Source: Clostridiales bacterium
GTDB lineage: Bacteria; Bacillota; Clostridia; Saccharofermentanales; UBA5734
NCBI GenBank assembly: GCA_007135995.1
Contig: SLHU01000384.1
Coordinates: 1-9,641 of the forward strand
DNA length: 9,641 nucleotides
Reading direction: 5' to 3'
The notes beneath the pieces are model-generated. The model was not told where the DNA came from and ran no database searches. It saw only the letters and a program-made list of their open reading frames with translations. The stretch's first letter is position 1; every line of letters starts with the position of its first letter. The translations under genes and the position numbers were made by a program. Shown one piece after another: positions 822 through 9,641 of this stretch.

Positions 822-2222
822 TCAGTCAGTTTCTTCTTTCTTTGGCATATTGATATTTGCGAATCCAAATACGATCGCGACAATCGGTGTCAGCAGACAG
901 ATGAACGCGAAGGGCGCGTAGGCGAGTGCGTTCACGCCTAATACGGACATCATAAAAGCACCGCTGCTGTTCCATGGAATCAGCGGCGAAGTTAACGTAC
1001 CTCCTGCTTCCAGTGCCCGAGATAAATTTTTATTATGAAGCTTCAGATCCTGATAATTATCTTCGTACATCTGCCCGGGCAGAACAACTGACAAATACTG
1101 ATTTGCTCCAAATATGTTAATCAAAATTGAAGTCAGCACCGTTGTTGCGACTAACGGTCCGCGGCTTTGCAGCAGTTTTTTCATCTTTCTGATCAAAGCT
1201 TCCAGAACACCCGTATCGTGCATCAGTCCGCCAAATGGCAGTGCGGTTATGGCCAGTGCTACCACTGAATACATGCTGGACAGACCGCCGCGAGACAGCA
1301 GCTCATCCATTTCAGACCAGCCTGTATCAATATCAGGCCCGGCATATATTGTCGTCATTAAGGATTCCAGCGACGCGCCTTGAACTGTCATCTGCATCAC
1401 TGAACCCAGCAATGTACCAATCAGCAGACTTGGAATCGCCGGTACTTTCAAAATAACCATGAGTAAAATCGCAGCTGGCGGCAGAAATAAAAGCCAGGAT
1501 AGGTCAAACTGGCTGGTGATCGCCTGCTGGTATTCAGAAATGTCTAAGGCGCCGGCATTATTCTCTGTAATCCTGTAACCGATTATCGCGTATAGTGCCA
1601 GGGCAATCACGAAACTGGGCAGGGTTGTGCGCAGCATATGCCGGATATGCTCATATAGGTCAACCTTGAGCAGACAGGGGGTTAAGTTTGTTGAATCAGA
1701 TAAGGGTGACAGCTTATCGCCAAAAAAGGCACCTGAGACAACAGCCCCGGCAATCATTGTTTCGGGTATGCCCAGAGCCTGACCTATGCCAATACTGGCA
1801 ACGCCAACTGTACCGGCCGTTGTCCATGAACTGCCGGTAACAACAGAAACAATACTGCATAGTATCAGGATAGAAGGCAAATACCATGAGGCACTGAACA
1901 GATGAAAGCCATAATACATAATGGCCGGCACAACACCGCTGCCAATCCAGGTACCGATCAGCATGCCAATAATCAATAAAATCACCATCGCTGTAGCGCC
2001 TTTTCTGATATTGTTCGCCAAACTTTCCTCGATCTCTGACCAGCTATAGCCGTGTCGCCAGGCTATCAGAGCAATCAGCAGTGTACCCGCGATCAAGATA
2101 GGATGAGGCTGCGCTTCAAAAAGCAAAACAGACAGTAAAAGCAGGGCGCCTACCAGAACAAGGGGCAGCAAAGCAACCAGAAAAGAGATCTTCTTTTTGT
2201 CATTCGGTTTTGAGTTTGTCAT
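822..2222 (-). CDS. nhaC: NhaC-family Na+/H+ antiporter
   Basis: This 466-residue polytopic membrane protein is of normal length for NhaC. After a short basic cytoplasmic N-terminus (residues 1-12) it is almost entirely hydrophobic segments, about 10-12 by eye. The diagnostic block is GAFFGDKLSPLSDSTNL at residues 164-180, with polar residues inside a membrane region, followed by a DLYEHIRHM segment. A second family block, ANQYLSVVLPGQMYED, lies in the C-terminal third. NhaC proteins exchange cytoplasmic Na+ for external H+; the related MleN exchanges malate and lactate with Na+/H+, and the two cannot be separated here. The ATG at 2222 is preceded by GAGAG, a weaker ribosome site than its neighbours have. 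Its 3' end faces the bidirectional terminator. It has a 152-nt gap to the upstream gene and may have its own promoter. The family is secure; the exact substrate is inference. Confidence 0.92.
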   Translation of the reverse strand: MTNSKPNDKKKISFLVALLPLVLVGALLLLSVLLFEAQPHPILIAGTLLIALIAWRHGYSWSEIEESLANNIRKGATAMVILLIIGMLIGTWIGSGVVPAIMYYGFHLFSASWYLPSILILCSIVSVVTGSSWTTAGTVGVASIGIGQALGIPETMIAGAVVSGAFFGDKLSPLSDSTNLTPCLLKVDLYEHIRHMLRTTLPSFVIALALYAIIGYRITENNAGALDISEYQQAITSQFDLSWLLFLPPAAILLMVILKVPAIPSLLIGTLLGSVMQMTVQGASLESLMTTIYAGPDIDTGWSEMDELLSRGGLSSMYSVVALAITALPFGGLMHDTGVLEALIRKMKKLLQSRGPLVATTVLTSILINIFGANQYLSVVLPGQMYEDNYQDLKLHNKNLSRALEAGGTLTSPLIPWNSSGAFMMSVLGVNALAYAPFAFICLLTPIVAIVFGFANINMPKKEETD

Positions 2223-2297
2223 ATGCGTCTCTCACTCATTTGTATGTGGTGTATCAACTCATACTTTTATTAACAACAAACGTTCTTTGGGTATCGT

Positions 2298-2326
2298 CCT
2301 GCCTTGCAGATCAATCCTCTGGCAGG
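2298..2326. repeat. Inverted repeat in the leader of the antiporter gene
   Basis: CCTGCC (2298-2303) and GGCAGG (2321-2326) are perfect complements with a 17-nt spacer, in the 152-nt gap upstream of the antiporter start. No T-run follows on the minus strand, so it is not a terminator. It could be a leader hairpin or chance. Confidence 0.3.
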
Positions 2327-2359
2327 TACTCACTCTGGCAATTCTCATATTTTTATGTT

Positions 2360-2373
2360 TTATACCAGTATAA
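2360..2373. promoter_or_regulatory. Palindrome overlapping an extended -10 promoter candidate for the antiporter gene
   Basis: TTATAC-CA-GTATAA is a perfect 6-bp dyad with a 2-nt centre, one base after the stop codon of the GH99-like gene. On the minus strand it reads TGGTATAAA, an extended -10 (TGnTATAAT-like) box oriented towards the antiporter gene about 140 nt away. No good -35 was seen. A palindrome over a -10 box is the usual arrangement of a repressor operator, but the site is short and the call is tentative. Confidence 0.35.
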
Positions 2374-2374
2374 T

Positions 2375-3484
2375 TCACTTTAAAAAGACATCTTTTACTG
2401 ACTCTAAATAACCATATCCATACAAATCGTCCGGCTGCAGATAGCTGGTTTCGGTCCATTCATTCCAGCTGTTAATGGTCATCAACGGAGGCTGCTGCGG
2501 ATGCCTGTCAATATAGTCACGCGCCATTTCCAGGCCTTTACTGATATTCTCAGGGGTATTGTTTTTGACAATGCCAGGTCTAAACTCCTTAAATCTTGGA
2601 TTATTGTCCCAGCCCAATGATACGTGCGGAAAATAAGGAATGGAATATTGAGTTTCAACGTTTTGCCATTCTTTCTTAACGTCTTCCAGTATGTTGAGAT
2701 AATCACGGTCAATATCAGTAAAATGAACGAACTGATAATGCGTGACGCTGTCAAATCCAAGTGATTCAATCAGCATCGCATTGCTTTTGTTTTTATCTAA
2801 ACTGTCAACACCGCTTAAATTCAACTGAATGTTTCCCCACAATACAAGCTGCAAATGCAAATCAGGGAACCCTGCTGCTTTTACTTGTTCTCTGAACCCG
2901 CTGAGCTGTTTTTTTGTGTTCTCATAGCCACCCAGTCCTCTAACAAGATTTCCCAGATCATAGATCATGAAAACAGGTTTTCCTTCAATTAAATAATACG
3001 TCGGTTGAGAAAAGTAACGCTGAATAATCCGATGAACAATAACAGAAAACTCATGCTGATCAACAGCGCCATCCCAGATGATATTTCTTTCATCTGAAGC
3101 ATTGCGAATATCCCAGGTGTTGTTAACGGTATGATTCGCCCACATTAAATAAAACTTGACTCTCTCCTTATTGCTTGCCTTCAAATATCCGTCATTTAAG
3201 CAGTTTTCCAGAAATGGCCTGCGGTCATACCAGTACCAGTCATAAATAAAAACATTTACCCCGTGGTCAGCGGCAGCGTTGATCTGCATATCCATAACAT
3301 AAGGATCGGCCTCGTTAACATATCCCCATAAAGGTTTTCGCGGCCAGTCATGTTCATCCGTTTTCTTTATGGCGTTTTTAACAGATTGCCATTCACCTAT
3401 GCCTTCCGGCCAGAAGGTCATGGTTCTGGGATCATTACCGGAGTAAGCCGGCCAGACATAGGCCGCTACATCATATTTTTTCAT
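2375..3484 (-). CDS. WbsX / GH99-like (beta/alpha)8 glycoside hydrolase-like protein
   Basis: The protein has 369 residues and no signal peptide or membrane segment. It opens with YDVAAYVWPAY and has the region NVFIYDWYWYD near residues 80-90. It ends with the signature INSWNEWTETSYLQPD (WNEW at residues 340-343) and GYGYLESVKDVF, typical of the Glyco_tran_WbsX family, which is fold-related to GH99 endomannosidases. Members lie in polysaccharide biosynthesis or degradation loci and few have a proven reaction. E342 and E345 are candidate catalytic residues by analogy only. An in-frame GTG at 3490 was rejected as the start: the Shine-Dalgarno GAGGTG (3495-3490) overlaps it and is correctly spaced for ATG 3484. 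The gene follows a 428-nt gene-free stretch, so it probably has its own promoter. Absence of a signal peptide suggests it works on imported oligosaccharides or cytoplasmic glycan precursors. The family is secure; the substrate is unknown. Confidence 0.85.
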   Translation of the reverse strand: MKKYDVAAYVWPAYSGNDPRTMTFWPEGIGEWQSVKNAIKKTDEHDWPRKPLWGYVNEADPYVMDMQINAAADHGVNVFIYDWYWYDRRPFLENCLNDGYLKASNKERVKFYLMWANHTVNNTWDIRNASDERNIIWDGAVDQHEFSVIVHRIIQRYFSQPTYYLIEGKPVFMIYDLGNLVRGLGGYENTKKQLSGFREQVKAAGFPDLHLQLVLWGNIQLNLSGVDSLDKNKSNAMLIESLGFDSVTHYQFVHFTDIDRDYLNILEDVKKEWQNVETQYSIPYFPHVSLGWDNNPRFKEFRPGIVKNNTPENISKGLEMARDYIDRHPQQPPLMTINSWNEWTETSYLQPDDLYGYGYLESVKDVFLK

Positions 3485-3505
3485 ATGCACACCTCATCAA
3501 TAAGT

Positions 3506-3534
3506 ATTTTATCTGCTGCTCATCCGTTCCCCAA
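3506..3534 (-). promoter_or_regulatory. Possible promoter of the GH99-like gene
   Basis: On the minus strand TTGGGG (plus 3529-3534) and TAAAAT (plus 3506-3511) are 17 nt apart, about 22 nt upstream of the start codon. The -35 is a poor match (3 of 6) and the -10 is good (5 of 6). Such a promoter would need help, and the tandem repeat just upstream is a possible activator site. Confidence 0.3.
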
Positions 3535-3562
3535 TGAATCATCACACCATCAGCTGCTCAAA

Positions 3563-3602
3563 GCTAAACGTCGCTTTTCGCTGCTAAATGTCACTTTTCC
3601 GT
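3563..3602. repeat. Two-copy 20-bp tandem direct repeat upstream of the GH99-like gene
   Basis: The two adjacent 20-bp units (3563-3582 and 3583-3602) agree at 16 of 20 positions. Both share GCTAAA-n-GTC-n-CTTTTC. Twenty base pairs is close to two helical turns, so a protein bound to both units would sit on one DNA face. It lies 79-118 nt upstream of the ATG at 3484. No translated feature explains it. Confidence 0.6.
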
Positions 3603-3810
3603 TGCTGCGGTGAAACATTAGACGAACGTGAACAAAGCCTATCACCATGATATCACAATAGATATTTATCAAGAAAGACCAACACGCAAGACATGCTGCA
3701 GTTGTTATCCTATGTGTCGCGTAAAAGAAAAATGATCGACAGCTGTTAACAATAATTTAATAAATCAGCATGGCTGCAGTGTATCGCTTGTTTTGTGTAC
3801 AGGGTGCAAA
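3603..3810. other. Gene-free stretch, nothing identifiable
   Basis: This is the middle part of the 428-nt gene-free region 3485-3912. It is AT-rich (for example around 3750-3765), and no open frame has a ribosome site and family resemblance. It contains a TGATATCA octamer at 3647-3654. The reading frames crossing 3795-4174 on the plus strand are antisense to the usp gene. Confidence 0.5.
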
Positions 3811-3841
3811 ACCCGCAGACGCTTAAGCAGCACCTGCGGGT
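3811..3841 (-). terminator. Intrinsic terminator of the usp2-usp1 unit
   Basis: Read on the minus strand, ACCCGCAG (3841-3834) pairs perfectly with CTGCGGGT (3818-3811). Two G-U pairs and a GCT/AGC extension inside the stem give about 13 pairs closed by a 5-nt loop. The stem runs into TTTTG (its last T doubling as the first of the run). It lies about 70 nt after the usp1 stop codon. On the plus strand the hairpin is followed by CTGGTTTTC, which is less suitable. Confidence 0.78.
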
Positions 3842-3912
3842 CTGGTTTTCTAACATCTGTACTTTTTCCATTGCTTCCATTGGCGAAAGTTTGTTTATTT
3901 GGAAAACAGCTT

Positions 3913-4419
3913 TTATCGCACAATCAATATCGATGTCTCAATTGACTTGGCCACTTTATCTGCAACACTGCCAAGCAAATGCTTTTTCAATCCTGTTTTG
4001 CTGCTCGAACCCATCACAACCAGATCAATATCACTATCTTCAACAAAATCCATTATGACTTTGGCCGTGTTACCCCTCATTGATATGGCAGTAACCGGTT
4101 TTTGCAGGCTAATCGTACGTGATTTCGCGTTATTTAATACTTTTTCAGCTCTTTCTGACGTTTCTTCATTCTGATCACTGTCAGGCGCGCGCACTGGAAC
4201 ACCAGGGCCTATATCACCACCTGCAGTACCAGGTGCCCTCGGTGTTAAACCCGGAGCTCCGTCGGCGGAAGCCGGGTTTGCAAAGGTCTTGCTTGCGGGC
4301 TCTTCATCTACATAAAGCAAGGTCAACTCACTGTCATACATTTTTGCCAGTTCTATCGCTTTTTCAAGTGCGGCATTGGCACATTCAGAACCATCTGTCG
4401 GTACAAGTATTCTTTTCAT
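3913..4419 (-). CDS. Universal stress protein, UspA family (Usp1)
   Basis: This 168-residue soluble alpha/beta protein has one UspA domain. Strand 1 carries the nucleotide-binding start KRILVPTDGSE (residues 3-12), then helix 1 and strand 2 ending LLYVDEEP (34-41). The C-terminal loop is GSSSKTGLKKHLLGS (137-151), ending in ILIVR. ATP-binding Usps show G-2x-G-9x-G-(S/T); here the second Gly is Ser140. Residues 46-80 form a Gly/Pro/Ala-rich insert between strand 2 and the next helix, where most family members have a short loop. An ATG 18 nt further upstream is in frame, but AGGAGGTG ending 5 nt before ATG 4419 fixes the shorter start. The gene is the distal copy of a tandem pair, 73 nt after usp2 without a terminator between them, so co-transcription is likely. 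UspA proteins aid survival of starvation, oxidative or energy stress; the exact role of this one is unknown. Confidence 0.92.
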   Translation of the reverse strand: MKRILVPTDGSECANAALEKAIELAKMYDSELTLLYVDEEPASKTFANPASADGAPGLTPRAPGTAGGDIGPGVPVRAPDSDQNEETSERAEKVLNNAKSRTISLQKPVTAISMRGNTAKVIMDFVEDSDIDLVVMGSSSKTGLKKHLLGSVADKVAKSIETSILIVR

Positions 4420-4492
4420 GGTTACACCTCCTGTCAAACATCCAGGAAACTGTTTTATTATCGGCGCTAATTAACAGCAACCAGAATGAACC

Positions 4493-4999
4493 CTATCGCA
4501 CAATCATGATTGATTTTTCAATTGACTTGGCCACTTTATCAGCAACACTGCCAAGCAAAAACTTTTTCAATCCTGTTTTGCTGCTCGACCCTATCACAAC
4601 CAGATCAATATCACTATCTTCAACAAATTTCGTGATAACATCTGCCGGGTTGCCCGTCATTGAAATGGCTGTAACCGGGTTTTTCAAACCAGTTGTACGT
4701 GATTTCGCGCTATTTAAAACTTTTTCAGCTTTCTCTGATGTTTCTTCAGTCTGATCGTTGTCTGGCAAATGCACTGGAACGCCGGGGCCTGCACCGCCGC
4801 CAACAGTACCAGGTGCATTAGGTGTCACACCCGGAGATCCGCCAGTGGCAGCCGTGCTAGCATAAGTCTTGCTTGCGGGCTCTTCATCTACATAAAGCAG
4901 TGTCAACTCACTGTCATACATCTTTGCAAGCTCTATCGCTTTTTCAAGTGCAACATTGGCACATTCAGAACCATCTGTCGGAACAAGTATTTTTTTCAT
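4493..4999 (-). CDS. Universal stress protein, UspA family (Usp2)
   Basis: Usp2 is 168 residues and aligns with Usp1 end to end without gaps at about 80% identity. Differences gather in the Gly/Pro/Ala-rich insert (about 46-80) and the middle of the protein, while the N-terminal 45 and C-terminal 40 residues are nearly the same. The variant nucleotide loop G-2x-S-9x-G-S (GSSSKTGLKKFLLGS, 137-151) is shared. The start is ATG 4999, set by AGGAGG 7 nt upstream; an in-frame ATG at 5017 lies before that site and is rejected. It is the promoter-proximal gene of the usp2-usp1 pair, with an extended -10 box and a 28-bp palindrome upstream. Small UspA proteins act as homodimers or heterodimers, so Usp1 and Usp2 could pair; that is inference. 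Its promoter abuts the stop codon of the propeller gene, and readthrough from there is possible because no terminator is visible. Confidence 0.92.
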   Translation of the reverse strand: MKKILVPTDGSECANVALEKAIELAKMYDSELTLLYVDEEPASKTYASTAATGGSPGVTPNAPGTVGGGAGPGVPVHLPDNDQTEETSEKAEKVLNSAKSRTTGLKNPVTAISMTGNPADVITKFVEDSDIDLVVIGSSSKTGLKKFLLGSVADKVAKSIEKSIMIVR

Positions 5000-5047
5000 A
5001 GTCAAACCTCCTGTCAAATATCTAGGATATTGGTTTTCTCTAATACT

Positions 5048-5056
5048 ATTATAACA
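5048..5056 (-). promoter_or_regulatory. Extended -10 promoter of usp2
   Basis: The minus strand reads TGTTATAAT, a perfect TGnTATAAT extended -10. The hexamer 17 nt upstream (AACTTC) is a poor -35. A start near 5041 would give a leader of about 42 nt. The -10 and its upstream flank TGATTAA-n-AAT-n-ATG are conserved at the same distance before usp3. Confidence 0.75.
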
Positions 5057-5084
5057 TAATTCTTAATCAGGAAGTTTTTATCAT

Positions 5085-5112
5085 CAGTTGTTTACAAAAT
5101 CGTAAATGACTG
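5085..5112. promoter_or_regulatory. 28-bp palindromic operator candidate upstream of usp2
   Basis: The dyad has plus-strand arms CAGTtgTTTAC and GTAAAtgACTG around a 6-nt centre. It is centred about 57 nt before the expected transcription start, a typical activator position, and the promoter has no good -35. The core TTTAC-n6-GTAAA has the 5-6-5 geometry of CRP/FNR-superfamily sites, but no known consensus fits exactly. The wider block 5079-5119 matches 8765-8805 at 38 of 41 positions. Confidence 0.72.
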
Positions 5113-5118
5113 TTTTCA

Positions 5119-6384
5119 TCATAAATACTGCTCCATATCAAGCACCAGTACTCTGCGTGTATTTTCAAGAAACGCATTAACCGCTGCGTATCTGAACGTC
5201 CTGTCCCAGGCAGGATGCGGGTCAACCCTGAGGACAGAGGCTGTCTTTTGATATGGTGAGCGGGTGCTGATCCTCATAAGAATCTCTTCCTGTCCGTCCG
5301 GCAGCCAGATCAGTCTTATAGGCGTTGTGTCATCCCCATACTGGATGTATTCATTAAAGTACGTATCTGTCAGTATAAATTTACCGTTTGGATGAAAGGT
5401 TGGATGTCCGCTTCCCTGTACATCATCTAAAACTTTTTCAACGACAGAGCCATCAAGGGAAGCTCTGGCGAAATACATCTTATCCCAGTCTTTCCTGATA
5501 TTCATTGTCAGATAGGCTTCATCGGGATGCCAGTGTGTATGATGCCCGCCATTCACCCAGTGTTCCTGTCCGATTGAGATCTGCAAGTCAGATCCATCAC
5601 GGTTACAGGTAAACACATTAAACGTAACCAGTCCGGCAGCATTAGCATCTGGATGTCCGTGATGCTCAGCAGCGATCCACCGTGTTGTGAACATGATTTT
5701 TTTGCCAGAAGGGCTGTATTTTGAGTGAAACAGATAACATTCACCGTTCTTATACTGATCAATATATGCTTTGCTGAAACAAGTCTCAAAGATATCCCGC
5801 ATTGAAAGCAGGAGACGGCTTTTGCCTGTCTGTGTGTCAGTCACGAATAAGCCCTCATCTTCGGACAAAATGGTTACCACCGGCGTTTTATTATCCGGGA
5901 GCAAAACGCCATAACCCGGCTGTGTGCGTCTTTTACAGGCAGGATTACCGGTACAAGCCTCCAGACCATCCGGAGACGCATGATACACACCAGCTTCCAG
6001 GCGAATTCGCTTGCCGGTAAATGGATTCAGATTAACTGCGTAAACCTCCCACGTATCGGGATTCACATCATTAAAAAGCAGCTGATGATCATCAGCACCC
6101 CAGTTGATATTCGCACCCATCTGCTGCTCAAAGCCATATGATTGGCTCACTACTTTTTCTGTTCCCTCGATCAAGTCAATTAAGACAATTTCCCCTGCGT
6201 CACCAGGCTGCGGAACATGGTCTTCAAACGGCATGCGAAACAAGGCCATATAGCGTCCTGACGGACTAAAGGGTGATGTATCAAAAAAACGGTGGATGAC
6301 GCGGCCCTCATCTGGTGTCACACACCAGGCAGGTACTTTGGGGGAAAAGGCATTGTACAACGGAAATTTATGACTGATGTTCAT
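5119..6384 (-). CDS. Beta-propeller protein resembling oligogalacturonate lyase / TolB-type propellers
   Basis: This 421-residue protein has no obvious signal peptide or membrane segment. It shows repeated propeller blades of the PD40/TolB kind: SPFSPSGRYMALF (about 37-49), NINWGADDHQLLFND, SKYSPSGKKIMFTTRW, HWHPDEAYLTMN, HPTFHPNGKFILTD and DPHPAWDRTFRYAAVN. Histidines cluster at blade edges: H281, H282, H284, H286 in HHTHWHP, then H327, H331 and H390. PL22 oligogalacturonate lyases are seven-bladed propellers with a His/Gln-bound metal, and the blade spacing and His-rich motifs recall them. I cannot confirm the catalytic set, so lyase activity is inference; a non-enzymatic propeller is the alternative. 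ATG 6384 is the only in-frame start after a stop codon upstream; its ribosome site is weak and overlaps a hairpin. It is divergent from the HExxH gene, and its stop codon abuts the usp2 operator. Confidence 0.7.
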   Translation of the reverse strand: MNISHKFPLYNAFSPKVPAWCVTPDEGRVIHRFFDTSPFSPSGRYMALFRMPFEDHVPQPGDAGEIVLIDLIEGTEKVVSQSYGFEQQMGANINWGADDHQLLFNDVNPDTWEVYAVNLNPFTGKRIRLEAGVYHASPDGLEACTGNPACKRRTQPGYGVLLPDNKTPVVTILSEDEGLFVTDTQTGKSRLLLSMRDIFETCFSKAYIDQYKNGECYLFHSKYSPSGKKIMFTTRWIAAEHHGHPDANAAGLVTFNVFTCNRDGSDLQISIGQEHWVNGGHHTHWHPDEAYLTMNIRKDWDKMYFARASLDGSVVEKVLDDVQGSGHPTFHPNGKFILTDTYFNEYIQYGDDTTPIRLIWLPDGQEEILMRISTRSPYQKTASVLRVDPHPAWDRTFRYAAVNAFLENTRRVLVLDMEQYL

Positions 6385-6390
6385 ATCAAC

Positions 6391-6407
6391 CGGACACGAT
6401 TTGTCCG
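6391..6407. repeat. Hairpin just upstream of the propeller start codon
   Basis: CGGACA (6391-6396) and TGTCCG (6402-6407) pair perfectly around a 5-nt loop. The hairpin begins 6 nt upstream of ATG 6384 on the minus strand and covers the place of the ribosome site, where no strong Shine-Dalgarno is seen. It could reduce translation or be an operator. Confidence 0.45.
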
Positions 6408-6480
6408 CCTCGCTTTCTTTGACTTAGATCAGATAAGAGTATGCGGCAGTTTCCGTTCATCACTAAGTTCAATTTTAACC

Positions 6481-6526
6481 TATAATGAGTTTAATACATT
6501 GCTGCAACTCTATGATATCATATTAG
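6481..6526 (+). promoter_or_regulatory. Promoter and palindrome in the divergent intergenic region
   Basis: The 247-nt gap 6385-6631 holds a perfect TATAAT at 6481-6486 on the plus strand, without a good -35. A perfect 12-bp palindrome, TATGATATCATA, lies at 6511-6522. A second plus-strand option is TTGCTG (6499-6504) with TATTAG (6521-6526). The palindrome would fall just downstream of the first start site, where a repressor could act on one or both divergent genes. Confidence 0.4.
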
Positions 6527-6631
6527 AGGAGCGCTCACTTAATCAGTGAAATGCAAAGATGATCAGGTTTGAGGCTTCTGGGCGTTATTTGCGCTTGTGT
6601 CTTCGCGGCAGATGATCTGAGGGGAACAGAT

Positions 6632-7705
6632 ATGAATGAATGGATTATCAAACCATCTTACAAGCTGGACCTTGCCTGTTTTTGCAACCTGTTTACAGAA
6701 GATCAGCTGATGATTGACAGACACCAGGATGCATATGGAAAATTTATCGATCGAATGAGAATCAGACCTGATTTTTTCGATTTCGCGAAGTCATTACAAC
6801 AGCAAGGTATTCTCATAGGGGGTGCAACTGCTTCACTGCTTAGTCTCACAGATGAAGACAGTTTTGTGATCAGCCGAATTTGCGAGATTTTGGATAGTGT
6901 TGCTTTAAGGCCTCTGGTATTGGACTATTTAGACGAAAACGGTTTGTCATCTGAAGCTCCGAAAATTATTGAGACGATACTTCCTGTTTTATCAGATATG
7001 CTTCATTTTATTCATGAGTCCGGGTTTCTGGCTTACTGGATCGATGAATGTCAGCCTTTAATTCAACAGAAATGTGATTTATTTTCAAAGCAGGCAGCTG
7101 CATATCCTGTCGTATCGAAAGTTAATCAGCTCTTGGGATTTAAAAGTGTCAATGCAGATCAGGTCAGTTTGTTTTTATGCAGTCTCAGCGCGCCCTATGG
7201 TATAGGCCTTAAAAACGCTTTTATTTCAGACATTCGATGGCAGTTCAAGATCACTGCAGCAGTTGCGGTTCACGAACTCATCCACCCGCCCTTTTCAAGA
7301 CTAAGAATCAAAGAAATCACTGAAATCCTATGGGAGGATGACTTTCTTAAGGAAGCTAAAAGCAGATTGCCGGTTTCATCCGGCTATCATCTGCCTGAGC
7401 AGTTTGTTGAAGAAAATCTGGTTGAAGGCACGCACATTTTTTTAAGTGAAGAGATGGGGATTGAAGAAAACCCGCTAAAATATCTGATAGAACACGACCA
7501 CGCAAGCCATGTTCTATCGGTCATCCTCTATGATGCGCTGAAGCAAGGCTATCGTGACAGGACAGCAACTATTGAGGAAACAATTAACTTGCTCATGTCT
7601 GAAGGTAAATTAATACCAGGTCACATCCGAAGCAGCTACATGAACATCTACAAAAAAGCAGGTCTTCAAGACATGGTTCCATTTCAAAGCAAAACGGGAG
7701 GATAG
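6632..7705 (+). CDS. HExxH-motif protein, predicted metallopeptidase-like, family not recognised
   Basis: The start is ATG 6632, preceded by GAGGGG with 7 nt spacing; an in-frame TTG at 6569 has no ribosome site and is rejected. The product is 357 residues, mixed hydrophobic and acidic, without a signal peptide or clear membrane helix. The key motif is HELIH at residues 214-218, in a hydrophobic stretch (AVAVHELIHPPF) as in zinc peptidases. A segment EENLVEGTH follows, where E260, E261 or E265, 42-47 residues later, could be the third metal ligand of a gluzincin-type site. A His/Asp-rich EHDHASH lies near residues 287-293. I do not recognise the family, and peptidase activity is inferred from the motif alone. 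The stop codon overlaps the ribosome site region of the next small gene, so the two are translated from one transcript. It is divergent from the propeller gene. Confidence 0.75.
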   Translation: MNEWIIKPSYKLDLACFCNLFTEDQLMIDRHQDAYGKFIDRMRIRPDFFDFAKSLQQQGILIGGATASLLSLTDEDSFVISRICEILDSVALRPLVLDYLDENGLSSEAPKIIETILPVLSDMLHFIHESGFLAYWIDECQPLIQQKCDLFSKQAAAYPVVSKVNQLLGFKSVNADQVSLFLCSLSAPYGIGLKNAFISDIRWQFKITAAVAVHELIHPPFSRLRIKEITEILWEDDFLKEAKSRLPVSSGYHLPEQFVEENLVEGTHIFLSEEMGIEENPLKYLIEHDHASHVLSVILYDALKQGYRDRTATIEETINLLMSEGKLIPGHIRSSYMNIYKKAGLQDMVPFQSKTGG

Positions 7706-7709
7706 TTAG

Positions 7710-7883
7710 ATGGCAAAAAGTTACGATCAGTCTGGATACACCCTATATGGTTTGGGTTTTATCGGCGCAGCTGTCTTTTTTATATCTCAGGCAGCTACGT
7801 TCTGGTTAGGGGTGCTGGGTTTTCTAAAAGCAATTGTATGGCCAGCTTTTCTGGTATATGAGCTATTTATGTTTCTGAACTGA
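7710..7883 (+). CDS. Small two-helix membrane protein (57 residues)
   Basis: ATG 7710 begins 4 nt after the upstream stop codon, with GGAGG at 7697-7701 and 8 nt spacing. The 57-residue product starts MAKSYDQSGYTLYG and ends YELFMFLN. Two hydrophobic segments, about residues 12-28 and 31-56, are joined by QAATFW, forming a helical hairpin. Trp, Gly and Pro positions (FWLGVLGFLKAIVWPAFLVY) recall short conserved membrane proteins of unknown function in Bacillota, which supports it being real although very short. The close spacing predicts co-expression with the HExxH protein. A small membrane partner could anchor or modulate the peptidase-like protein, or be its substrate; this is inference. 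Confidence 0.8.
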   Translation: MAKSYDQSGYTLYGLGFIGAAVFFISQAATFWLGVLGFLKAIVWPAFLVYELFMFLN

Positions 7884-7970
7884 TGGACAAAGACTCACAG
7901 CTGGTTTCTGATCTGCTTCAGACCAGGCGCGTCAACGACCCGGCTTAATCAAAAGATTCAGATGGGTCTT

Positions 7971-8014
7971 GAAGGACATGTTGACCCTGACCTGATTGTC
8001 CTTCGCTGCTTTTT
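7971..8014 (+). terminator. Probable terminator of the HExxH / small protein operon
   Basis: GAAGGACA (7971-7978) and TGTCCTTC (7997-8004) form a perfect 8-bp stem with an 18-nt loop, and TTTTT follows at 8010-8014 after 5 nt. The loop is long and the T-run offset, so it is not ideal, but it is the best candidate in the 280-nt gap 7884-8163. A weaker hairpin with a 2-nt bulge lies near 7899-7925. No supported gene was found in the gap. Confidence 0.42.
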
Positions 8015-8115
8015 CTGCGCAGATAAAAGACCCGAAGATACCTGGTGAAGCATCTGCGGGCCTGTTTGCTGTGTCACAATCTTTCTTTGACGCCACATCT
8101 TCGTTGACGCCTTTT

Positions 8116-8147
8116 TGCTGATATGTGATAATCATCGCGTATCAGCA
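8116..8147. repeat. Perfect 8-bp inverted repeat downstream of usp3
   Basis: TGCTGATA (8116-8123) and TATCAGCA (8140-8147) flank a 16-nt spacer, 16 nt beyond the usp3 stop on the minus strand. The minus strand continues with A's, not T's, so it does not fit an intrinsic terminator for usp3. It may protect the mRNA 3' end or help termination by other means. Confidence 0.4.
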
Positions 8148-8163
8148 GTACGCATCACGACCC

Positions 8164-8685
8164 TCAGCGCACAATCAGAACTGATTTTTCAATCGACTTG
8201 GCCACTTTATCAGCAACACTGCCAAGTAGAAATCTTTTCAATCCCGTCTTGCTGCTTGAACCCATTACAACAAGATCAATATCACTTTCTTCGACAAAGT
8301 CCTTGATGACGTCGGCCGGATCACCTGTCATAGATATAGTCGTAACTGATTCTAACAAGCCGGTCGTACGTGATTTCGCATTACTTAATACTTTTTCAGC
8401 CCTGTCTGACGTTTCTTCAGTCTGATCTTCATCCGGCACGGGTACGGGAGCACCAAGGGGAGCGCTGGTCCCGACGCCGCCTGCAACAGTTCCCGGTGCA
8501 CCTCCGGATGCCATCCCCGGTGAGCCGCTGGTCATTGCCGGCGTGACAACATGCTTATTTGCGGGATCTTCATCCACATACAGCACGGTCAATTCACTCT
8601 CATACAATTTTGCCAGTTCTATTGCTTTTTCAAGTGCAACATTGGCACATTCAGAACCATCTGTTGCCATAAGTATTCTTTTCAT
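8164..8685 (-). CDS. Universal stress protein, UspA family (Usp3)
   Basis: Usp3 is 173 residues and clearly paralogous to Usp1 and Usp2: KRILMATDGSECANVALEKA at the start, YVDEDP ending strand 2, and the C-terminal loop GSSSKTGLKRFLLGS followed by VADKVAKSIEKSVLIVR. The G-2x-S-9x-G-S variant of the nucleotide loop is the same. The Gly/Pro/Ala/Met-rich insert after residue 45 is five residues longer than in the pair and differs in sequence. ATG 8685 is set by GGGAGGT 6 nt upstream; the in-frame ATG at 8703 precedes that site and is rejected. The gene stands alone, transcribed towards the HExxH operon, with its own extended -10 and palindrome in exact register with usp2. It is therefore probably co-regulated with the usp2-usp1 unit, 3.5 kb away. 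No intrinsic terminator with a T-run follows. Confidence 0.92.
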   Translation of the reverse strand: MKRILMATDGSECANVALEKAIELAKLYESELTVLYVDEDPANKHVVTPAMTSGSPGMASGGAPGTVAGGVGTSAPLGAPVPVPDEDQTEETSDRAEKVLSNAKSRTTGLLESVTTISMTGDPADVIKDFVEESDIDLVVMGSSSKTGLKRFLLGSVADKVAKSIEKSVLIVR

Positions 8686-8733
8686 AAACTTACCTCCCGT
8701 CAAAGCTCTTTTTTACAGTTGTTTATAATAACG

Positions 8734-8742
8734 ATTATAACA
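8734..8742 (-). promoter_or_regulatory. Extended -10 promoter of usp3
   Basis: The minus strand reads TGTTATAAT, the same as before usp2. From this -10 to the ATG is 49 nt in both genes. The -35 position (CCTGTC) is a poor match, as in usp2. Confidence 0.75.
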
Positions 8743-8770
8743 TCATTATTAATCAAGACAGGTCTATCAT

Positions 8771-8798
8771 CAGTTGTTAACAAATTCGTTAATGACTG
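8771..8798. promoter_or_regulatory. 28-bp palindromic operator candidate upstream of usp3
   Basis: The plus-strand arms are CAGTtgTTAAC and GTTAAtgACTG around a 6-nt centre. The site lies 29 nt from the extended -10, the same as in usp2. Against the usp2 site, one base in each arm differs at mirror positions (TTTAC/GTAAA against TTAAC/GTTAA), so the dyad is kept; a third difference lies in the centre. Confidence 0.75.
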
Positions 8799-8867
8799 TT
8801 TTCATATTTTTTATTTCAGTCTAAGCTGTGTCATCGCTGAAATGACATGCGCATGACCTGACTTTGA

Positions 8868-9362
8868 TCAAATCTCCCCGTCCAGAAGCAATTGGCTTTT
8901 AGGCGGCAATTGTCCGTGATCCGGTATTTCATACGTGTTATCATCGACATCTTTGATTAGGATTCTGCGGTTCTCGAGTATTATGATGTCTGTACTCCTG
9001 TTTCTGATTTCAAAACTACGCTTGCCGCGATTTGTTAAAACCATCCAGTGACTGATCCCATACTCCTCTTCAATTGCTTGTATTTCTGTGATGCAGGGAA
9101 TGAAATAGTACTCATCCAGCCACTTGCTGGTATAATCCTTCACATGGCGGGGCAATTCTTTTAACTGCCTGAGAATCCCTACATCGTGACCTTTCTCATC
9201 AATGAAGTAGATGTATGATGAAGGTCTTGACAGAGGAAACAGACGGCGGGGTTTTACCTTAACCAGTTCATCGTCGTCCCGGGAAAAATACAGCGAAGCC
9301 CGTTTCTCCTCGTCATATTCAAGCAGGATCTGTTTCCCGTCAATAAAAATTTTTTCGTTCAT
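8868..9362 (-). CDS. DUF1854 domain protein
   Basis: The protein has 164 residues and no membrane segment. From residue 35 it follows the DUF1854 pattern: KPRRLFPLSRPSSYIYFIDEKG, then LKELP...WLDEYYFIPCITEI, then SHWMVLTNRGKRSFEIRNR, then RRILIKDVDDNTYEIPD. It is predicted to be mostly beta with a short helical centre. The function of the family is not established; members are repeatedly found next to ABC exporter genes, sometimes in loci annotated with cyanophycin metabolism, for which there is no sign here. Its ribosome site TAGGAGTG overlaps the TAG stop of the ABC gene, with 12 nt between stop and ATG, so the two are probably translationally coupled. No intrinsic terminator is seen before the usp3 operator, so readthrough into usp3 is possible. 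Confidence 0.85.
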   Translation of the reverse strand: MNEKIFIDGKQILLEYDEEKRASLYFSRDDDELVKVKPRRLFPLSRPSSYIYFIDEKGHDVGILRQLKELPRHVKDYTSKWLDEYYFIPCITEIQAIEEEYGISHWMVLTNRGKRSFEIRNRSTDIIILENRRILIKDVDDNTYEIPDHGQLPPKSQLLLDGEI

Positions 9363-9374
9363 TTCGAATCACTC

Positions 9375-9641
9375 CTATTTGAAAGACAGCATATTAGCCC
9401 CGATATCGGTCTGCAGCTTGATCAATTTATAAAAAATGCCTTTATGAGCCATCAACTCATCATGGGTGCCAATTTCCGCAATTCGTCCCTCTTCCAGAAC
9501 AACGATCCGGTCGGCATTTCTCAGCGTTGACAGGCGATGCGCGATGATAATGGTTGTTCGATTCTGCACGAGCCGGTCAATCGCTTCCTGAATCAGATGC
9601 TCAACTTCAGTATCAACAGATGCGGTTGCCTCATCTAGAAT
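9375..9641 (-). CDS. ABC exporter ATP-binding/permease protein, C-terminal part (5' end outside window)
   Basis: The frame runs off the window at base 9641; the last 88 residues are present, ending at TAG. The fragment starts in the Walker B/D-loop, [10 protein letters not shown], with the catalytic Glu at fragment residue 4. The switch motif [10 protein letters not shown] has its His at residue 35. The ending [20 protein letters not shown]...G.FYKLIK is typical of the ABCB/MdlB-type exporters in which the ATPase is fused behind a six-helix membrane domain. The membrane part lies beyond the window, so a stand-alone ATPase is possible but less likely. Substrate cannot be inferred. DUF1854 follows immediately, an association known for this type of transporter. 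Confidence 0.9.

Follow-up and report, generated by a model that had tools for sequence, protein, structure and literature searches.

The window analyzed here, a stretch of 9,641 nucleotides (nt) that makes up one whole contig (C256) of the Clostridiales bacterium assembly GCA_007135995.1 (2.19 Mb, 432 contigs, ~59% complete), carries three genes of the UspA family on its minus strand, usp1, usp2, and usp3 (Pfam PF00582). A 28-bp dyad is located upstream of usp2 and again, in the same register, upstream of usp3 (Table 1). Judged from its conservation and position, this dyad is a putative site of a dimeric transcription factor that would activate both usp promoters, a reading held here with moderate confidence and favored over the more tentative one that the dyad is a transcription terminator on the opposite strand.

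Conserved dyads upstream of usp2 and usp3

Both dyads are exact matches to the pattern CAGT-nn-TTwAC-n6-GTwAA-nn-ACTG, and their half-sites read TTTAC-n6-GTAAA and TTAAC-n6-GTTAA. As stated in the first-pass annotation of this DNA, 38 of 41 bases agree between the 41-bp blocks around the two dyads. Within the dyads themselves, 25 of 28 bases agree. The further statement of the annotation that two of the three differences fall at mirror positions was also borne out: at positions 9 and 20 of the dyad, the pair T/A in one copy is replaced by A/T in the other, so that symmetry is kept, while the third difference lies at position 15, in the center. When three changes were placed at random in 200,000 simulations, a mirror pair that keeps complementarity arose in 2.6%; taken alone, the paired change is modest evidence for selection, and it does not discriminate between a DNA site and an RNA hairpin. 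Allowing up to three mismatches, the pattern matches twice in the window against 0.01 expected in shuffled sequences, a count that is not an independent test since the pattern was derived from these two sites. Dyad symmetry alone is not unique either, as six 28-bp frames of the window have at least 10 mirror pairs. A further frame of this length, with mirror pairing at 11 of 14 positions, lies at 8118–8145 between the plus strand genes and usp3. The distinctive feature of the two dyads is their conservation between the two promoters.

The upstream regions of usp2 and usp3 can be aligned without gaps for about 120 nt above the ATG (87/120 identical), up to the outer edge of the block, beyond which homology is lost. 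By this alignment, the two promoters are paralogous. The sequence between the block and the ATG is little conserved, as had been claimed, with 49 of 79 positions identical compared with 38 of 41 in the block (Fisher P 0.0002), and the 150 nt above the block are identical at 43 of 150 positions, which is near chance. Of 72 fourfold-degenerate codon sites compared between usp2 and usp3, 37 are different. With half of these sites changed, an unconstrained block would show far more than three changes in 41 bases; the block is probably under selection and not a recent copy. These figures support the original proposal that selection acts on a dyad preceding the two usp promoters.

The same figures bear on the possibility that the dyad is a functionless remnant of the duplication or of a recent gene conversion between the promoters. 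The paralogy of the promoters over the ungapped ~120 nt would agree with such an origin, but it is made very unlikely by the contrast between the changed fourfold sites and the preserved block, to which a conversion would need to have been confined. Two near-identical palindromes in intergenic DNA might also be taken for copies of a small mobile or repetitive element. This is scarcely credible, since the 2.19 Mb of the assembly contain only two copies at up to two mismatches, which stand in register within homologous promoters and are not dispersed as repeats are.

Promoter architecture

Both promoters carry the same extended -10 box at identical distances, as first reported, although the distances themselves required correction. 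The dyad lies 31 nt from TATAAT (28 nt from TGTTATAAT) and not 29 nt, and the interval from TATAAT to the ATG, likewise equal in both promoters, is 48 nt and not 49 nt. The placement of the dyad center near -57 was reproduced, with a value of -57.5 if transcription starts 7 nt below the -10 box. The -35 boxes had been described as weak; none is recognizable, the hexamers at 17-nt spacing being AACTTC and CCTGTC. The combination of a good -10 box with a poor or absent -35 box, which marks activator-dependent promoters, is present, and the general layout of dyad and promoter fits an activator that binds upstream. From a position near -57, such a protein would touch RNA polymerase and make up for the missing -35 box, so that usp2, together with usp1 by read-through, and usp3 would be switched on together. 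The dyad may have been carried along when an ancestral usp gene was duplicated with its promoter. A promoter scan of 3800–9000 was uninformative, with 10 promoters found and 10.0 expected.

The conservation that speaks for an activator site would speak equally for a repressor operator, or for that of a regulator able to repress, which would act through looping or by preventing upstream contacts. However, the dyad ends 31 nt above TATAAT without overlapping it, and a promoter that lacks a -35 box would require assistance and not obstruction, which makes a repressor an unlikely binder.

Plus strand hairpin

On the plus strand, both dyads form the same unbroken stem of 11 pairs, two of which are G-U, with a 6-nt loop and a folding energy of -10.9 kcal/mol. 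Compared with shuffled sequences, this hairpin reaches z-scores of -4.59 and -4.05, with 0 and 1 of 200 shuffles as good. The minus strand fold amounts to -7.0 kcal/mol, a value equaled by 10 and 8 of 200 shuffles, and the asymmetric arm positions are A-C mismatches there. Each plus strand hairpin is followed by TTTT, which starts at 2.3% of positions in sampled intergenic DNA. By simple arithmetic, two random non-Watson-Crick pairs would both be G-U on one strand or the other in about 1 of 18 cases. A stable stem-loop directly before a T run, the mark of an intrinsic terminator, is present, although it is a weak one by its G-C content and number of T residues.

These features suggest that the dyad may act as an intrinsic terminator on the plus strand, stopping divergent or antisense transcripts from the usp promoters before they reach the neighboring gene. 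Divergent transcription from prokaryotic promoters is described as common (PMC10268837, consulted in part), so a terminator that makes a usp promoter one-way is conceivable. The plus strand fold is better than the minus strand fold in both copies, and both asymmetric arm positions are G-U on the plus strand, where the paired change keeps the stem equally well as it would keep an operator. In addition, a terminator scan of 3800–9000 placed both dyads among its 10 sites (4.1 expected), and our own terminator score was 19.5 for the dyads against at most 14.5 for candidates below 41 ends of open reading frames (ORFs). The control for this score, drawn from ORFs of at least 150 codons in six frames of the window and 13 other loci of the assembly, is weak: spurious ORFs are included, any long palindrome scores high, and 30 of the 41 ends have no candidate. 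The score also missed the likely terminator behind usp1.

When compared with Rho-independent terminators, the plus strand of the dyads shares the stem-loop followed by TTTT, but differs in its AT-rich stem with only three G-C pairs, in a T run of only four, and in the lack of an obvious plus strand gene to end. No plus strand gene ends near either site, the nearest before dyad 1 ending at 654 and the one before dyad 2 (6569–7705) stopping 1.07 kb short of it, an interval in which usp3 lies antisense. No good plus strand sigma-70 promoter was found at matching places, no Rfam match was found in the window at E values up to 1, and a terminator would leave the conserved TATCAT on the other side of the dyad unexplained. 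On balance, the terminator is a serious but tentative reading. A dual element, serving both as the DNA operator of a dedicated, undescribed usp regulator and as an RNA terminator that makes the promoters one-way, is quite unlikely; if it existed, one conserved palindrome would turn a promoter on and end its divergent transcript.

Further sites and the Usp type in relatives

At up to two mismatches, the assembly contains only the two sites before the usp genes. A Usp regulon extending beyond the two paralogous promoters, as the first-pass annotation had proposed, thus found no additional member in the ~59% of the genome covered. Allowing three mismatches added two 3-mismatch sites (control, 3), both within long open frames. 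The relaxed core TTWAC-n6-GTWAA occurs 11 times in the assembly compared with 17 times for a control pattern; of the nine besides those in the usp dyads, none has a -10-like box 15–44 nt downstream, and four lie inside long ORFs. Among 57 relatives, 12 foreign matches with up to two mismatches were obtained in 10 genomes against 18 for the control, and 391 genomes sampled from the class (own included) gave 5 foreign matches with at most one mismatch against 4 for the control. One match is common to both lists, leaving 16 distinct foreign sites, 13 of which are located inside an open frame of at least 100 codons and only one of which has an extended -10-like box 10–44 nt away.

In G038, a genome of another family of the order, a dyad with two mismatches, GAGTTGTTAACAATATTGTAAAATTCTG, is located 30 nt above TGGCATAAT (locus L008, 1453–1528) and precedes a thioredoxin reductase-like gene, with a thioredoxin-like gene behind it (names assigned by eye). 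As a second target, this site was rejected. The sister genome G030, whose protein is 89% identical, has no match below five mismatches at the locus, and the same is true of eight other reductase loci (12 genomes of the family searched, eight with the gene). Because of its absence from these loci, the G038 site is taken as a chance occurrence.

The Usp type of the window is rare, as judged by protein searches. The closest foreign protein (P0003, 77%) is encoded on a contig of 1,995 bases. Of the order, 188 genomes were covered (own included), and G022 is the only one besides the host genome with a close full-length Usp; the match in G005 is weak and partial, and that in G019, from an earlier search, is weaker still. 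The nearest relative with a named source, P0005, is labeled as coming from a Ruminococcaceae metagenome-assembled genome and is, by eye, the G022 protein. Searches of the 390 other genomes of the class sample at E ≤1e-30 (15 of which had already been examined earlier, G022 not among them) and of 397 others in a phylum sample at E ≤1e-25 did not recover the type. A scan of genome contigs returned only three Halorientalis loci, with 34–52% identity.

Several observations weigh against an activator site, and the comparison of upstream regions in relatives, which the first-pass annotation had proposed as a check, is the first of them. In G022, a genome of another genus and the one close relative compared, the usp gene encodes a protein of 65% identity and is preceded by TATAAT but has no dyad. 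Local alignment of the 130 nt above it on both strands revealed no trace of the block, 94 to 204 of 300 shuffles being as good. Loss of the dyad with usp kept had been named beforehand as refuting, and it is seen here in a single, rather distant relative. Second, the two dyad copies in the window are paralogous, so they count as a single observation. Third, the length from the -10 box to the ATG is kept though its sequence has changed, and since leader length is also kept, the preserved spacing of the dyad is weak evidence. Moreover, class I sites of CRP are usually centered at, for example, -61.5, from which the dyad center at -57.5 deviates; the G-U pairs and TTTT are explained by an RNA hairpin and not by an operator; and no regulator gene was recognized in the window. 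With these points taken into account, the upstream activator site is still favored over the terminator.

Relation to CRP/FNR-type regulators

Like CRP/FNR operators (TGTGA-n6-TCACA), the usp dyad has two 5-bp half-sites separated by a 6-bp gap, dyad symmetry, and a position upstream of a promoter. Unlike them, its TTwAC half-site lacks the TGA core that CRP/FNR sites carry, and its symmetry extends over 28 bp with outer CAGT/ACTG, compared with a usual operator length of 14–22 bp. The early assignment to a CRP/FNR-type regulator agrees with the geometry, but not with the half-site, which contains none of the cores GTGA, TTGA, or GTAAC when set against the consensus sites in the consulted part of PMC1274295.

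Three HTH_Crp_2 matches were detected in the assembly, two of them over the cut-off, with R-P and R-E recognition helices. The CRP/FNR protein of locus L041 (1651–2391) has the recognition helix SRPSLSR, with a proline where CRP has Glu-181 (by eye). A proline at this position is described for HcpR2, whose common site is GTAAC-n4-GTTAC, with a 4-bp gap in contrast to the 6-bp gap of the usp dyad, and other motifs are given for some Clostridia (PMC1274295, same part). The L041 gene and a ferredoxin-like gene (named by eye) are transcribed divergently, the latter being followed by a hydroxylamine reductase/hybrid cluster protein gene, and the palindrome beside the L041 gene is GTAGCtataGCTAC, not the usp dyad. 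Within 1651–4982 of this locus, the palindrome GTAGCTATAGCTAC, located between the CRP/FNR gene and the ferredoxin-like and hydroxylamine reductase genes, is likely an HcpR2-type site in which G replaces the usual A. The other clear CRP/FNR protein (L042, 1087–1764) has the helix AREVVSR with a CRP-like Arg-Glu pair, for which a GTGA-type site is expected. The CRP/FNR assignment was not adopted, as neither protein fits TTwAC-n6-GTwAA, and judging from their recognition helices the regulator is probably not one of the two. Since ~40% of the genome is missing, another member of this family, or of another family, could be the binder.

Dinoroseobacter shibae is a marine bacterium from a phylum other than that of the host. 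Its FnrL directly activates several usp genes (PMC5398030, consulted in part) and provides a precedent for the control of several usp genes by one CRP/FNR-family regulator, in a case where the regulator is known. For the usp dyad, both the regulon and the CRP/FNR-type regulator went beyond the evidence, given the lack of further sites and the mismatch of the half-site.

Gene neighborhood

Table 1. Positions in the window of the dyads, the associated promoter elements, and the usp genes.
Feature	Position	Strand	Description
Dyad 1, before usp2	5085..5112		28 bp, CAGTTGTTTACAAAATCGTAAATGACTG; 10/14 Watson-Crick mirror pairs
Dyad 2, before usp3	8771..8798		28 bp, CAGTTGTTAACAAATTCGTTAATGACTG; 11/14 mirror pairs
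Conserved block 1	5079..5119		41 bp around dyad 1: TATCAT - dyad - TTTTCAT
Conserved block 2	8765..8805		41 bp around dyad 2
Extended -10 box of usp2	5048..5056	-	TGTTATAAT; -35 not recognizable
Extended -10 box of usp3	8734..8742	-	TGTTATAAT; -35 not recognizable
TTTT after hairpin 1	5113..5116	+	terminator-like
TTTT after hairpin 2	8799..8802	+	terminator-like
usp1	3913..4419	-	UspA-family, Pfam PF00582
usp2	4493..4999	-	UspA-family, Pfam PF00582, E 1.9e-32; ATG with AGGAGG upstream
usp3	8164..8685	-	UspA-family, Pfam PF00582, E 8.7e-34

The usp1 gene follows usp2 on the minus strand after a gap of 73 nt and is likely co-transcribed with it; the region upstream of usp1 contains neither the dyad nor TGTTATAAT, while GATAAT is present there. 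For usp2, an alternative TTG start is open at 5017. Behind usp1, a CCCGCAG...CTGCGGG hairpin followed by TTTT was noticed by eye on the minus strand (3810–3842) and is a plausible terminator of the usp2-usp1 unit.

The usp3 gene is located 3.7 kb from usp2, and a divergent gene pair lies between them. The minus strand gene of this pair (5119–6384) encodes a protein of 421 amino acids without a Pfam or NCBIfam match, and its stop codon is separated from dyad 1 by 6 nt. The plus strand gene (6569–7705) encodes a protein of 378 amino acids, also without a match in either database, in which HELIH occurs within AVAVHELIHPPF, reminiscent of a zinc-metalloprotease motif. Directly upstream of usp3, the minus strand (8868–9641) encodes a DUF1854 protein and the terminal part of an ABC transporter; their best NCBIfam models are the pair associated with cyanophycin metabolism, neither of which reaches its curated cut-off.

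Implications for usp control

A comparable control site for usp genes in clostridia was not found in the titles and abstract beginnings of the literature searched. A paired change in a palindrome is readily read as the mark of a protein site, but in this case it preserves an RNA hairpin as well, and given the strand-specific G-U pairs and the T run, the protein-site and RNA readings need to be tested against each other. If the dyad is indeed an activator site, the rare UspA type of this uncultured bacterium would have a defined operator sequence through which it is controlled.

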